Assembly (NCBI RefSeq): GCF_000724545.1
Contig: NZ_JHBV01000033.1
Location: forward strand, 1 to 64,000
Origin: Aureispira sp. CCB-QB1
GTDB lineage: Bacteria; Bacteroidota; Bacteroidia; Chitinophagales; Saprospiraceae
Length of the DNA: 64,000 bases
Reading direction: 5' to 3'
In this document: positions 58,521 to 63,372 of the stretch, in pieces
Layout of the letters: every line of letters begins with the position of its first letter
Position numbering within the stretch: position 1 is the first letter of the stretch
Made by a program: the position numbers and the translations under genes
Notes under the pieces: model-generated
The model's input: the letters and a program-made list of their open reading frames with translations, nothing else
Database searches by the model: none
Told to the model about the DNA's origin: nothing

Positions 58521-59050
58521 ATTTAGGATTGTTATTGGTTTTTGAATATAGAAGTTACCACTAAATAAATACAATGGAGTATTCCCCTTCGTTTTTAGTA
58601 CGCTGTTTATCAAGTTATGTTTCTTTTTATAAGACATTTCAATAAAACTTGACACCTATTAAAATGAAACTGTATGGTTATTGTAACAACAGCAATAAAA
58701 GAAAAAATTTGCTCTTAATGACAACCATAATACGGTGTGCAGTTCATTTAATTGCTTTTAATGAATAATTTCGTGGCATTAATATATTATGCACTTGAAA
58801 AATAAAATTAATACTAACTAAAAATATAAGTGTTTTTTTCTGCTTTTATAGCAACAAAACTAACAATTCTACTACATTACAAGGGGCTTATTTATAACTA
58901 AAACTCTCCATTTTTCCCAAAAATGCGTATTTTAAGCCGTAACTCAATCCACAAACCTAGGTACAATGTTCGCTTCAAATTATATAGTTTGGCAAACAAT
59001 GCACCCAGTGCTACCTTATCTATAATTAACAATCAATCAATTAATATAAC
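58521..59050. other. non-coding spacer
   Basis: About 530 AT-rich bases between divergent genes. No ORF above 40 codons that looks real, no repeat copy and no clear hairpin. Confidence 0.4.
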
Positions 59051-59284
59051 ATGGGGTATTATGTAAAGTATGGCCATCGCTTCATCAAGCGAACACGCAA
59101 TCGGAGGATTGACACCATTGACGCCATTTTGGGCACCAAAAAGCAAGCAAAAATTTACGGTTCTGAACGAGATGCCAAAAAGGCAATTACAACCTATATG
59201 TATGCCTACAAAGAATTAGAAGGAAATTGTGAAATTGTAAAAGCCAAAGTTCCTCCTAAGAGTGCGGCAAAAGAGGATTCTTAG
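59051..59284 (+). CDS. small basic hypothetical protein
   Basis: A 77-residue protein, positively charged at the start (GHRFIKRTRNRRID) and helical later (YGSERDAKKAITTYMYAYKELEGNCEIV). No family recognised. The composition and codon use look like a real gene. Confidence 0.5.
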   Translation: MGYYVKYGHRFIKRTRNRRIDTIDAILGTKKQAKIYGSERDAKKAITTYMYAYKELEGNCEIVKAKVPPKSAAKEDS

Positions 59285-59327
59285 ATTAGGATGAAGCAAC
59301 TTATCTTGAGTGGACTTTTTCTAAATC

Positions 59328-59690
59328 AAAAAGAAAAAGCCAATCGCAGTACGATTGGCTTGCCTTTGCATAATCATTAACATGGATTAGGTTGTCATGG
59401 TTTGTTAAGACTTAGTAAAGCATTGGTCTAAAGTTTAGTTCTGATTATTTCAAAGGCAATCTCTTTGTTTCATGGGCAAAGAGTTGTTCATAGGTTAAAA
59501 ATTTAGTTGAAGGTTTTAGGTTTGTTTAGTTGAATTTTAGGTATTAGTTTTTCTCAAGCTATTTTCTTTATATTGTTAAAGTATAAAGAAGTTTCTCATG
59601 GATTTTAAAATTTAGTTGAAGGTTTAGGTTTAGGTAAATTTTAAAGTTTAGTTTTTTAATTTTCATGAGGAAGGGTTAGCTCCTTTTGTT
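59328..59690 (-). ncRNA. candidate small RNA, copy 1
   Basis: Leftward unit with a promoter at 59695-59725 and a terminator at 59337-59361 followed by a U-rich run. The full transcript would be ~360 bases. A second, weaker promoter (CAAAGGCA complement at 59451-59458, TTG complement 59477-59479) could give a ~117-base form. The 3' part (plus strand ATTAACATGGATTAGG, then the stem) is shared with copy 2. A 32-codon frame (start near 59666) is not conserved in copy 2. No downstream gene is fed, so it is not a leader. Confidence 0.6.
59337..59361 (-). terminator. intrinsic terminator of small RNA copy 1
   Basis: Minus strand: AAGCCAATCG, loop TACTG, CGATTGGCTT, then TTTCTTTTT. Perfect 10-bp stem. 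Confidence 0.85.
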
Positions 59691-59694
59691 GTTA

Positions 59695-59725
59695 CAAATA
59701 TAGTCCTTTTATAGTTTCAGAACAA
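59695..59725 (-). promoter_or_regulatory. promoter of small RNA copy 1
   Basis: TTG (complement 59723-59725), exactly 20 bases, TATATTTG (complement 59695-59702). Confidence 0.8.
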
Positions 59726-59729
59726 GCCG

Positions 59730-59781
59730 AACTAACGAAAGGAACATTTGAACTAATGAAAGGTACATTTCACCTAACGAA
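59730..59781 (-). promoter_or_regulatory. three 21-bp-spaced operator boxes, copy 1
   Basis: Plus-strand words AACTAACGAA (59730), AACTAATGAA (59751) and ACCTAACGAA (59772) repeat at exactly 21 bases, directly upstream of the -33 element. Two 9-bp half-sites with a 12-bp spacer is the LytTR-type arrangement. Confidence 0.65.
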
Positions 59782-59942
59782 TGGATTTTGTATTCTTTTC
59801 CTTTACTTTCGTTTAACCTTAAAAACATATTTTTCGCCCCCTACCATACCTAATTTTATCACTTATTTACGATCTTCCACTCGATCAGATTAAGAGTGCC
59901 TTACAATTGATTATTAACTTTTTGAATCTTGAGTAGTTCCTT

Positions 59943-60190
59943 AAAAAGAAAAAGCCAACCGCTTTGCGATTGGCTTACCTTTTTATAACCATTAACATGA
60001 ATTAGGGTTGGGGATCATGGTATTCACTTTAAGGTTCAGCATGGGTTTAACGTTTAGCTGAATTTTAAGGTTTAGTTTTGGCTATGCAAAGGTAACTTTC
60101 CTGATTTCATGGATAAAGAGCAGTTTACAATTACTTGGTTTAACTACATTCTAAAACGTTTGACACAAAGAAAGATGTATCCTTCTTTGT
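59943..60190 (-). ncRNA. candidate small RNA, copy 2
   Basis: Homologue of the unit at 59328-59690 with the same order: boxes, promoter, body, conserved 3' block (plus strand ATTAACATGAATTAGGG) and U-tailed hairpin. About 247 bases from the main promoter, or ~138 from an inner TACCTTTG (complement 60087-60094). Small reading frames here are not those of copy 1, so an RNA product is favoured. Confidence 0.6.
59952..59976 (-). terminator. intrinsic terminator of small RNA copy 2
   Basis: Minus strand: AAGCCAATCG, loop CAAAG, CGGTTGGCTT, then TTTCTTTTT. Differs from copy 1 in the stem by a U-A to U-G change, so pairing is kept; the loop sequence has changed. Confidence 0.85.
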
Positions 60191-60195
60191 TGTTA

Positions 60196-60226
60196 CAAAT
60201 ATACACCATCTAACTACATCAAACAA
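60196..60226 (-). promoter_or_regulatory. promoter of small RNA copy 2
   Basis: TTG (complement 60224-60226), exactly 20 bases, TATATTTG (complement 60196-60203), as in copy 1. Confidence 0.8.
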
Positions 60227-60230
60227 GTCC

Positions 60231-60282
60231 AACTAATGAAAGGAACATTCTATCTAATGAAAGATACATTTCACCTAATGAA
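60231..60282 (-). promoter_or_regulatory. three 21-bp-spaced operator boxes, copy 2
   Basis: AACTAATGAA (60231), ATCTAATGAA (60252) and ACCTAATGAA (60273) with the same 21-base period and the same distance to the promoter as copy 1. The last box overlaps the 3' end of the frame at 60275-60502. Confidence 0.65.
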
Positions 60283-60502
60283 TGGATTTTTTATAGTGGA
60301 CACCGTCTCTATTAGGCAGAATATCTTTAAGCCTTTCTCTCTCTTTTGAAAACCAAATAGCACCTTGATTAATCCAACGATAACGCACAACATTGCCTTT
60401 GGGATACGCTTTTTTTAAAGACAAACCTCCCCGCTTAAGACGAATTGGATAATCATTCCAATTTTTTCCCTTTTTAAAAATCAATTCTTGCAATGCCGCC
60501 AC
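60275..60502 (-). CDS. small hypothetical protein, possibly a gene remnant
   Basis: A 75-residue frame from GTG at 60502: MAALQELIFKKGKNWNDY..., basic and Trp-containing. The frame stays open five codons upstream of the GTG with no ATG, and its stop lies within the operator boxes of small RNA copy 2. It could be the C-terminal remnant of a longer gene whose start is the small frame at 60525-60683. No family recognised. Confidence 0.35.
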   Translation of the reverse strand: MAALQELIFKKGKNWNDYPIRLKRGGLSLKKAYPKGNVVRYRWINQGAIWFSKERERLKDILPNRDGVHYKKSIH

Positions 60503-60524
60503 ACAATAATCACTTTATTGGTTG

Positions 60525-60659
60525 TTATCTCACAATACTAAACCATTCAATTCCTAAATTACCTTCTCTACTTTTGATATCTAATAATGCTCCTTTTTCT
60601 GTTTGATCAAAAAAATCCTCATCCACAGCTATTTGAGTTTGATTAAAATCCTTTTTCAT
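60525..60659 (-). CDS. 44-residue small ORF
   Basis: Frame MKKDFNQTQIAVDED...IEWFSIVR; an in-frame ATG at 60683 would give 52 residues. Acidic, with no signal peptide. It is 22 bases from the next small frame in the same direction. Composition looks protein-like, but size makes the call uncertain. Confidence 0.35.
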   Translation of the reverse strand: MKKDFNQTQIAVDEDFFDQTEKGALLDIKSREGNLGIEWFSIVR

Positions 60660-60799
60660 AGATTTTAAAATCAAATAATACATCTTTTTTATTCTATGCT
60701 ATTAATTTGCTCTGAACATTACTAAATAGCTTCTACTCATCCTATTGAGAACTACAAGAGTCTCTTAAATATTTTAATACTAAAATCTAGGAAAATTTA

Positions 60800-60807
60800 T
60801 ATCTTTG
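60800..60807 (+). promoter_or_regulatory. -7 promoter element of pheT
   Basis: TATCTTTG fits TAnnTTTG; no good TTG is found 20 bases upstream. Would give a leader of about 75 bases. Confidence 0.45.
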
Positions 60808-60888
60808 TGTTTTATTTTATAATAGCTTGCTAATAGTCGAGCGAACTATTGATTTTAACAACTACTATTCATAACATAAATACAAACC

Positions 60889-63372
60889 ATGAAAGTTTCA
60901 CTAAATTGGTTAAAACAATACGTTAACGTAAACGAATCCAAAGAGGAAGTCAGTGACATTCTAACGAATATAGGTTTAGAAGTAGAGGGAATGGACATTT
61001 TTGAGAACATCAAAGGTAGCCTAGCAGGATTGGTCATTGGCGAAGTATTGACTTGCCAGAAACACCCTGATGCAGATAAATTGTCTATCACAACGGTTAA
61101 TATTGGTGCAGAAGCACCGTTACAAATTGTTTGTGGAGCACCTAATGCCCCACAGGCAGTTGGCAAAAAAGTTGTTGTGGCGACTGTTGGAACGACCTTG
61201 TATGCTGAAGATGGCAAATCTTTTAAAATCAAAAAGGGAAAAATACGTGGTGAGGAATCTATTGGAATGATTTGCGCAGAAGATGAGATTGGCTTAGGCA
61301 CTTCACACGATGGCATTATGATACTAGACGATGAAAAAGCAAGTGCTGGTATGCCTGCTGCTACTTATTTTTCCGATCGTGTTGTCAGCGATGTGGTTTA
61401 TGAAATTGGCTTAACCCCCAACCGTTCAGATGCAACAGGGCATTTAGGAGTTGCTTTTGATTTGGCTGCCGCTCTCAAAACAAATTATACCAACCAAGGA
61501 ACATTTGAACAACCTGATGTCTCCAATTTCTCTATTGACAATCACAATTTAAACATTGATGTCAATGTTGAAAATCAAGATGCGTGTCCAAGGTATACTG
61601 GGGTTTGCATTGAAGGGGTAACCATTCAAGACGCTCCTCTATGGATGCAAAACCACCTAAAAGCCATCGGCATTGAACCTAAAAACAATGTTGTCGATAT
61701 TACCAACTATGTGCTTCATGAGCTTGGTCAGCCCCTACATGCGTTTGACTATGACCAAATTGAAGGCAAAAAAGTAGTTGTTAAAAACCTAGCAGATCAA
61801 ACAAAATTCACAACACTAGATGAGGTAGAACGCAAACTAAGTCACGAGGATTTGATGATTTGCGATGGGAATGGCAATGGCATGTGCATTGCAGGTGTAT
61901 TTGGAGGTATCCAATCTGGCGTTACCCAAACAACTACTAATATTTTCTTAGAATCTGCTTTTTTTGATGCAATTTCTATTCGCCGTTCAAGCATGCGCCA
62001 TTTGTTGCGTACAGATGCTGCTACTCGTTTTGAAAAGGGAGTAGATCCAAATGGAACTCTATACGCTTTGAAACGAGCGGCATTGCTAATCAAAGAGTAT
62101 GCTGGTGGTACAATTGCTTCAGAAGTCATTGATATTTATCCAAAGCCTGTTCAAAGAGCACAAGTAACGGTTCGTTTTGAGAAAGTAACTGACTTAATTG
62201 GTGCCGATATCCCCAAAGAAGATATTAAGAAAATCTTGGGTTATTTAGACATGAACATCCTAGAAGAAAATGCAGAAGCGTTTACAGTAGATGTTCCCAC
62301 CAACAAAGTTGATGTTACTAGAGATGCGGACGTTATTGAGGAAATCTTGAGAATTTATGGCTACAACAAAGTAGAAACGCCTACAACCGTACACTCTGTA
62401 TTGTCGTTTGCTCCAACTCCTAACCCTTTCAAAGTAAAGAACTTAATTGCTGATTTGTTAACAAGTTCTGGTTTTAATGAGATGATGGCAACCTCTATGA
62501 CGCGTTCTGATTATTACAAAAAGCATTTGCCTCAGGATGAAGATAGTTTGGTGTATGTTAACAATACATCCAACCAACACCTAGACTTGATGCGTCCAAG
62601 TATGCTTTTTAGTGGTCTAGAAGCCATTGTTCACAACCAAAACCGCCAAAATCAAGATTTAAAGTTGTATGAATTTGGCAAAACTTACTTCAAGAAAGTA
62701 ATTGATGGACAAGGAAATAGAGATTATTTTGAACAACAACACATCAGTTTGTTCCTAACTGGTCAACGCAATCCAGAAAATTGGCATCAAAAGGAAAACA
62801 AAGTTAGCTTTTATACGTTAAAAGCTTATGTTGAACATCTTATGACTCGTTTAGGTATATTGCCTAGTTCGATTCAATGTACGCCTCTTAAAGAGGACAA
62901 CGAAGTATTCACCTATGGTTTGAAATATCATAGAGGGAAACAAGAAATTGTATCTTTTGGGCGTTTAGATGGGAACATTGCCTTAGGCATGGGCATCAAA
63001 CAAGAGGTGTTTTATGCTGATTTTGATTTTGACACCATACTTCAAATTTTGAAAAAACACAAAATGAAGTATCAAGCAATGTCAAAATACCCCGCTGTTC
63101 GTCGTGACTTGGCTTTGGTCTTGGATCAAACAGTTGGCTACAACGAAATTTTGGGCATTGCGGTTAAAACTGGTGGCAAACAATTGCAAGCAACGAATTT
63201 ATTTGATGTTTATGAAAATGAAGCGCAAATTGGAGCAGGCAAAAAATCTTGCTCGGTTAGTTTTATCTTTCAAGACGACAATAAAACATTAAAAGATAAA
63301 GATATTGACAAAGTTATGTCAAAACTAATTGCTACTTATGAGAAAAAATTAAACGCCCTCATTCGTAAGTAA
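60889..63372 (+). CDS. pheT: phenylalanine-tRNA ligase beta subunit
   Basis: An 827-residue subunit of the alpha2-beta2 phenylalanyl-tRNA synthetase. Domains in order: start MKVSLNWLKQYV, tRNA-binding OB fold (~40-150, HPDADKLSITTVNIG), B3/B4 editing region (~210-390), B5 (~405-475), catalytic-like core (~480-690) and the C-terminal ferredoxin-fold anticodon-binding domain (~735-827, YPAVRRDLALVLD). Length is normal. pheS is elsewhere, as is common in Bacteroidota. Confidence 0.96.
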   Translation: MKVSLNWLKQYVNVNESKEEVSDILTNIGLEVEGMDIFENIKGSLAGLVIGEVLTCQKHPDADKLSITTVNIGAEAPLQIVCGAPNAPQAVGKKVVVATVGTTLYAEDGKSFKIKKGKIRGEESIGMICAEDEIGLGTSHDGIMILDDEKASAGMPAATYFSDRVVSDVVYEIGLTPNRSDATGHLGVAFDLAAALKTNYTNQGTFEQPDVSNFSIDNHNLNIDVNVENQDACPRYTGVCIEGVTIQDAPLWMQNHLKAIGIEPKNNVVDITNYVLHELGQPLHAFDYDQIEGKKVVVKNLADQTKFTTLDEVERKLSHEDLMICDGNGNGMCIAGVFGGIQSGVTQTTTNIFLESAFFDAISIRRSSMRHLLRTDAATRFEKGVDPNGTLYALKRAALLIKEYAGGTIASEVIDIYPKPVQRAQVTVRFEKVTDLIGADIPKEDIKKILGYLDMNILEENAEAFTVDVPTNKVDVTRDADVIEEILRIYGYNKVETPTTVHSVLSFAPTPNPFKVKNLIADLLTSSGFNEMMATSMTRSDYYKKHLPQDEDSLVYVNNTSNQHLDLMRPSMLFSGLEAIVHNQNRQNQDLKLYEFGKTYFKKVIDGQGNRDYFEQQHISLFLTGQRNPENWHQKENKVSFYTLKAYVEHLMTRLGILPSSIQCTPLKEDNEVFTYGLKYHRGKQEIVSFGRLDGNIALGMGIKQEVFYADFDFDTILQILKKHKMKYQAMSKYPAVRRDLALVLDQTVGYNEILGIAVKTGGKQLQATNLFDVYENEAQIGAGKKSCSVSFIFQDDNKTLKDKDIDKVMSKLIATYEKKLNALIRK

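Follow-up and report, generated by a model that had tools for sequence, protein, structure and literature searches.

What do two similar, leftward-oriented units in a 64,000-nucleotide stretch of the Aureispira sp. CCB-QB1 genome (the whole stretch that was analysed, hereafter the window) produce, and what could switch them on? A preliminary description had proposed a tandem pair of homologous, regulated small-RNA units, and boxes, promoter, 3' block and terminators of both units indeed lie at the positions that it gave. The two units, u1 (60282-59943) and u2 (59781-59328), have direct-repeat boxes, a promoter, a 3' block and a terminator in common. The features of the window's minus strand are as follows:

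60241..60282, minus strand: two full 21-bp direct-repeat boxes of u1 (LytTR-like sites)
60227..60240, minus strand: third box of u1, partial, adjoining the promoter TTG
60196..60226, minus strand: promoter of u1, TTG-N20-TATATTTG
59943..60195, minus strand: predicted small RNA of u1, 253 nt by the boundaries of this analysis
60079..60095, minus strand: 5' arms of the long-range helices P1 and P2 of u1
59975..59991, minus strand: 3' arms of P2 and P1 of u1, adjoining the common 3' block
59952..59976, minus strand: intrinsic terminator hairpin and U tail of u1
59740..59781, minus strand: two full 21-bp boxes of u2
59726..59739, minus strand: third box of u2, partial
59695..59725, minus strand: promoter of u2, TTG-N20-TATATTTG
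59328..59694, minus strand: predicted small RNA of u2, 367 nt by the boundaries of this analysis, with five CTAAAC words
59461..59483, minus strand: u2 hairpin CTCTTTG-CCCATGAAA-CAAAGAG with a CCATGAA word in its loop
59442..59459, minus strand: 5' arms of P1 and P2 of u2
59360..59376, minus strand: 3' arms of P2 and P1 of u2
59337..59361, minus strand: intrinsic terminator hairpin and U tail of u2

The promoter TTG-N20-TATATTTG of both units is one that we take to be of the Bacteroidota type, and the 3' block, in plus-strand reading, is ATTAACATG(A/G)ATTAGG at 59991-60006 (u1) and 59376-59391 (u2). The upstream parts of u1 and u2 match at 83% over 105 bases (BLAST, E 2.4e-22), and their bodies align poorly except at the 3' block. 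Three terminator-like sites, including both unit terminators, lie in 59000-60900, where shuffled sequences average 1.1. Both terminator changes reported earlier are real, i.e., a U-A pair that becomes U-G with pairing kept and an altered loop, and the micro-frames of u1 do not match those of u2, just as had been stated. By contrast, the additional, shorter transcripts (about 117 and 138 bases) that had been proposed are not supported, the promoter pattern used here occurring just twice on the minus strand in 59300-60330. The absence of a same-direction gene downstream was borne out as well, the next same-strand frame ending at 58655, and attenuation is unlikely because this frame lies about 670 bases from the u2 terminator, beyond a convergent gene (59051-59284, plus strand).

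This convergent neighbor of u2 is a small conserved gene of 77 aa (MGYYVKYGHRFIKR...), and relatives of it also adjoin RNA units in three other Aureispira genomes (G040, G003, and G006). On the other side, between u1 and pheT, lie two short minus-strand frames, 60275-60502 (75 aa) and 60525-60683 (52 aa), the former without a Pfam match and with its stop codon inside the first u1 box. Because G040 has longer genes of this kind at the same place, parts of them were apparently lost in the window strain.

The boxes follow the pattern TTCRTTAGnT...ATGT.CC with a period of 21 bp, two full copies being followed by an incomplete third one directly at the promoter TTG. With up to two mismatches, the two-box pattern matches at only six sites in the 7.37 Mb genome (four in u1 and u2, one in a unit behind pssA, and one ahead of an OmpH-like gene), compared to none for the reversed control. 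The last full box starts 35 nt before the TTG in all 12 aligned promoters (10 before RNA units and 2 before protein genes), among which the post-pssA unit of G003 (u3_G003) has a weak last box that was placed from the first one, and from which two sites were left out: L003, without a TTG and with 57 instead of 58 nt from the last box to TATATTTG, and L014, with 36 instead of 35 nt from the last box to the TTG. A profile of the boxes (R1) finds 17 sites at E below 1e-10 across the genus, 13 before RNA units and 4 before protein genes, and these sites are not independent since 12 of the 17 were used to build the model.

Is the product an RNA? With arms placed by hand (the MAFFT alignments A2 and A4 shift P1 by one base between the window genome, G000, and G003), all eight pairs of P1 and all seven of P2 form in both u1 and u2, with one A-U/G-C exchange in the former helix and one C-G/U-A exchange in the latter. 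P2 pairs at 5/5 positions in all five G003 copies with one U-A/C-G exchange, and P1 pairs there in its own register at 6/8 positions in copy a and 8/8 in copies b to e. G006 retains the CCATGAA hairpin of u2 with the closing pair changed from G-C to A-U, and the terminator shows another G-C to A-U change between the same two units, in a comparison of terminator arms that leaves out the post-pssA units u3_G000, u3_G006, and u3_G003. Folding z-scores of seven segments were -4.0, -3.0, -0.7, -2.8, -3.1, -4.7, and -1.3, the u2 segment in this set taking in part of the terminator. One universal fold was rejected, given that P1 and P2 are present in u1, u2, and G003 copies a to e only (weaker in a), and neither the G006 copy nor the post-pssA units showed them. 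We favor an RNA product because a few compensatory changes keep the helices while the small frames change. That u1 and u2 yield an RNA product and are co-regulated, as the preliminary description held, is well supported by the comparison with related genomes, from which we infer transcription itself and in which compensatory changes are few.

Beyond what had been described before, the pair is part of a larger, dispersed family of variable copy number that, as far as seen, is found in the genus Aureispira only. Our genus sample comprised nine genomes, G000 and eight others including G040 of the same species, and RNA units, whole or cut, were found in six of them (G000, G040, G001, G003, G004, and G006). 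A third unit of the window genome, with a predicted RNA of about 254 nt, lies behind pssA and is also present in four of the eight others (G040, G006, G004, and, in a shorter form, G003); it was not seen in the 800-1000 bases examined after pssA in G001, G002, G005, and G007. At the orthologous pheT locus, copy number varies between genomes: in G040 both units recur at a distance of about 2.4 kb from pheT, and G003, which belongs to another species, carries four units with a promoter (a, c, d, and e), of which c to e are nearly identical tandem duplicates, plus a 3' domain (b) that lacks its own boxes. This amounts to three units in G000 and six in G003, one of the latter without its own boxes. 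G001 retains boxes, promoter, and the 5' part of a unit up to a contig end, and G006 the 3' part of a unit from a contig start, beside the small conserved gene.

Several of these loci have peculiarities of their own. Within the G006 copy (L133, 1-250), the CCATGAA hairpin plus a CTAAACCC segment is repeated in tandem. In G003 (L031), the boxless 3' domain b at about 2050-2200 lies behind a box-led, lipoprotein-like gene at 1091-1777 (no Pfam match), as if the RNA could also come from an mRNA 3' end. Behind the post-pssA RNA of G000 (L036, 898-964) lies an inverted-repeat element (core TTAGTTTGAT..ATCAG / CTGAT..ATCAAACTAA) that is absent from the G040 counterpart (L037), and a similar element is found between boxes and OmpH-like gene at L096.

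Plain BLAST with u1 matched in 2 of 40 relatives (G000 and G006), the exact two-box pattern occurs on two GTDB contigs, both of uncultured Aureispira (records near the window's own were possibly excluded), and plasmids gave no match. Across 100 genomes of the family, R1 has a match at E<=0.1 in 65, mostly weak, and below 1e-4 only in G000 and in G098, a member of another genus; a further search, R2, covered Aureispira only. G098 has 15 R1 matches at E<=0.1 (best 1.9e-7), and among the seven examined (L113-L119), six are followed within 95-263 bases by a frame of at least 60 aa and one by none; the box regulon may extend to G098 because these six precede protein frames. Among the literature matches listed, drawn from a body of text with subscription journals mostly outside, no such RNAs are described for Aureispira.

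What might activate the units? The boxes are also predicted ahead of a histidine-kinase/LytTR operon and of further protein genes, which adds to the earlier picture of the locus. R1 places them before propeller-kinase genes in G000 (E 1.0e-5), G040 (3.0e-6; kinase assigned by likeness), G003 (2.0e-4), and G006 (1.6e-12; gene cut by the contig end to a 123-aa piece), and directly before a LytTR gene in G004 (3.3e-4). By Pfam, the kinases of G000 and G003 contain His_kinase, Reg_prop, and Y_Y_Y domains, the G006 fragment has only Reg_prop, and the regulators of G000, G003, and G004 combine Response_reg with LytTR. The LytTR gene follows the kinase gene or genes in G000 (two kinases, then LytTR) and G003, and the G000 regulator (C27:121193-121945) is 78% identical to that of G004 over 250 aa and 85% to that of G003 over 240 aa. 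Other genes behind boxes encode OmpH-like proteins (G000 and G003 by Pfam, a second one in G000 by likeness), LamG-type proteins (G000 C41:48257 and G003 by Pfam, two in G006 by likeness, and a second one in G000 by likeness with a weak box match, E 0.010), and, in G000, a leucine-rich-repeat protein with a Por secretion tail (Pfam).

Single LytTR repeats are 9 bp long. For its 21-bp period, an AraC-type activator was considered for the boxes as well. LytTR sites are direct repeats mostly 12 bp apart and located upstream of the -35 element, with a bias to 10 bp before it, and positive autoregulation is described for such systems (accessible part of PMC6193735). Aureispira likewise has 21-bp direct repeats upstream of the promoter, though its partial third box sits closer than 10 bp before -35, and the predicted boxes before its own kinase/LytTR operon parallel the autoregulation. 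Because the 21-bp period fits LytTR sites and the same boxes precede its operon, i.e., judged by geometry and target genes, the histidine-kinase/LytTR system is likely the activator of the RNA units, and these boxes apparently let it activate its own operon as well.

The RNAs themselves are marked by two words that are repeated inside units and shared among them. Over eight units, CTAAAC was counted 16 times (seven units; 1.6 expected) and CATGAA 11 times (every unit; 0.7 expected), counts that none of 500 dinucleotide shuffles reached in either case, with the words picked from the same eight units and related units counted as independent. Among nine units examined, CCATGAA is missing in three and CTAAAC in one. 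CCATGAA sits inside a better-than-shuffled stem (p<0.05) at six of nine tested sites (a tenth was dropped for its short flank), giving a combined p of 8.9e-6 if related units are treated as independent; with six of nine, a constant position in loops is ruled out. Accessibility of CATGA over 14 sites showed no gain (0.52 compared to 0.50 at random positions). The CTAAAC words are mostly unpaired (mean 0.80 over 16 words, compared to 0.50 at random positions), without excess over words of the same composition (0.82 compared to 0.78, p 0.39).

We propose u1 and u2 to be tandem paralogous genes for small non-coding RNAs that a LytS-type histidine kinase/LytTR response-regulator system would switch on, the regulator acting as an activator from the 21-bp direct repeats at constant spacing to the promoter. 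The RNAs would end at the intrinsic terminators and act in trans together with the dispersed third unit, they would titrate an RNA-binding protein in the manner of Rsm/Csr decoys through the recurring words CUAAAC and CCAUGAA, of which CCAUGAA often sits in a hairpin loop, and copy number would set the dose of these decoy RNAs. Two-component-induced, multicopy, trans-acting decoy RNAs under LytTR control are in our eyes the best explanation, which we consider somewhat more probable than its opposite. Its weakest step is the titration of an RNA-binding protein, which we believe rather less than we doubt it. The narrower idea of Aureispira-specific decoys for a novel type of RNA-binding protein that reads CCAUGAA loops and CUAAAC tracts, with tandem amplification setting the dose, is offered tentatively. 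Hfq has no match in the window genome, compared to 5 of 14 in a control search, and RRM_1 has none either, compared to 2 of 14 including Bacteroides ihuae.

A serious rival to the decoy step, in itself possible yet rather doubtful, is that the LytTR-controlled RNAs act as base-pairing sRNAs with CUAAAC, CCAUGAA, or the 3' block as seeds near mRNA start codons. Multicopy sRNAs of Bacteroides, FopS, bind near start codons (PMC11697453, accessible part), and the largely unpaired state of the CUAAAC words would suit seeds; yet the complement of CTAAACYTTAAAA with up to one mismatch has 76 matches, sRNA copies included, fewer than the 129 of the reversed control. One candidate target was a sigma-70 gene whose 5' leader holds a perfect complement of 13 bases to u2, but among the other genomes this site is kept in G040 of the same species and in none of the seven remaining ones, being changed in G006, G001, and G003 and absent in G007, G004, G005, and G002, and the sigma-70 gene was rejected as a conserved target for this reason. 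The two other exact matches outside the sRNAs lie on the strand opposite a coding frame and between frames running in the other direction, respectively, and were set aside. Regarding the preferred decoy reading, two very different explanations of the units as such carry far less weight. Coding of small peptides, with the RNA as an mRNA for several micro-ORFs that start at CATGAA, could draw on the apparent likeness of CCATGAAA to a start-codon context, on a 32-codon frame in u2, and on MKTKLNFCKK (G000) and MKRLNLCK (G006) in post-pssA units. The homologous hairpin frame, however, is MKQRDCL (7 codons) in u2 and MK (2 codons) in G006, where the stem is held by a compensatory change as the frame breaks, and the conserved leader is followed by MKIKK... 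(32 aa) in u2 but MKRSADN in G001. Micro-ORFs are present in seven of eight listed units, among which no common peptide was seen. We regard this explanation as highly improbable. About equally improbable is a mostly recent duplication of co-regulated promoters and a terminator, with the RNA bodies as neutral by-products. The poorly aligning bodies of u1 and u2 outside the 3' block and the near-identical tandem copies c to e of G003 would fit, but the post-pssA unit persists in G000, G040, G006, G003, and G004, the compensatory changes speak against it, and the words are enriched in units with otherwise unrelated bodies.

Regulatory RNAs of Bacteroidota are known mostly from gut Bacteroides. 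The units described here would add a multicopy RNA family, so far of Aureispira only, with a candidate activator and with a candidate regulon of LamG-type and OmpH-like proteins beside the RNAs, and the repeated words together with the lack of detectable Hfq or RRM in the window genome suggest a search for a new RNA-binding protein. In agreement with the preliminary description, which had recognized no known RNA family, an Rfam search of the window at gathering score gave no match to u1 or u2 and returned solely a SAM riboswitch elsewhere (RF00162, 30676-30760, plus strand, 68.7 bits). Permissive scans had nothing at gathering score, the lowest E (0.0012) belonging to a miRNA model in L039 outside the unit.

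Several known systems are nevertheless instructive. CsrB, RsmY, and RsmZ are protein-decoy RNAs under two-component control, and GGA is the word bound by CsrA. The Aureispira RNAs resemble them in the proposed two-component control and in a short repeated word often placed in hairpin loops, but their words are CUAAAC and CAUGAA, and GGA is not enriched (9 in eight units compared to 11.1 in mononucleotide shuffles). The Qrr sRNAs of Vibrio comprise several homologous, co-activated sRNAs under one regulatory system, much like the joint control that we propose for the Aureispira units. Membership in Qrr (RF00378) is marked by the gathering score of 50 and by Hfq, whereas our units score 22.0, 19.3, and 18.7 (the best on the wrong strand) and the window genome is without an Hfq match. 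Qrr are named as multicopy sRNAs alongside the FopS sRNAs of Bacteroides, which are multicopy paralogues with a Rho-independent terminator and a single-stranded 5' seed region that bind the RRM protein RbpB (PMC11697453, accessible part). FopS and the Aureispira units thus have multicopy paralogy and a Rho-independent terminator in common within the Bacteroidota, but the latter differ by internal helices, boxes shared with a two-component operon, restriction to their genus as far as seen, and a genome without an RRM_1 match for a partner like RbpB. FopS came up neither at gathering score nor among the permissive matches with E up to 2, but Rfam 15 may not hold this family. Similar in regulatory layout is a quorum-sensing system, agr of Staphylococcus with its LytTR regulator AgrA, next to which VR-RNA of the Clostridium VirR/VirS system is a comparable regulatory RNA under LytTR-type control. 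RNAIII of agr, a family contained in Rfam, was missing from our results both at gathering score and in the permissive scans with E up to 2. Its promoter has upstream LytTR direct repeats, and the same regulator activates its own operon (PMC4227749, accessible part). In contrast to agr, the Aureispira kinase carries Reg_prop and Y_Y_Y domains, and the RNAs occur in several copies at a distance from the two-component operon, with pheT and the small conserved gene as neighbors; in their LytTR-repeat promoter and a seemingly autoactivated operon, the two systems resemble each other.
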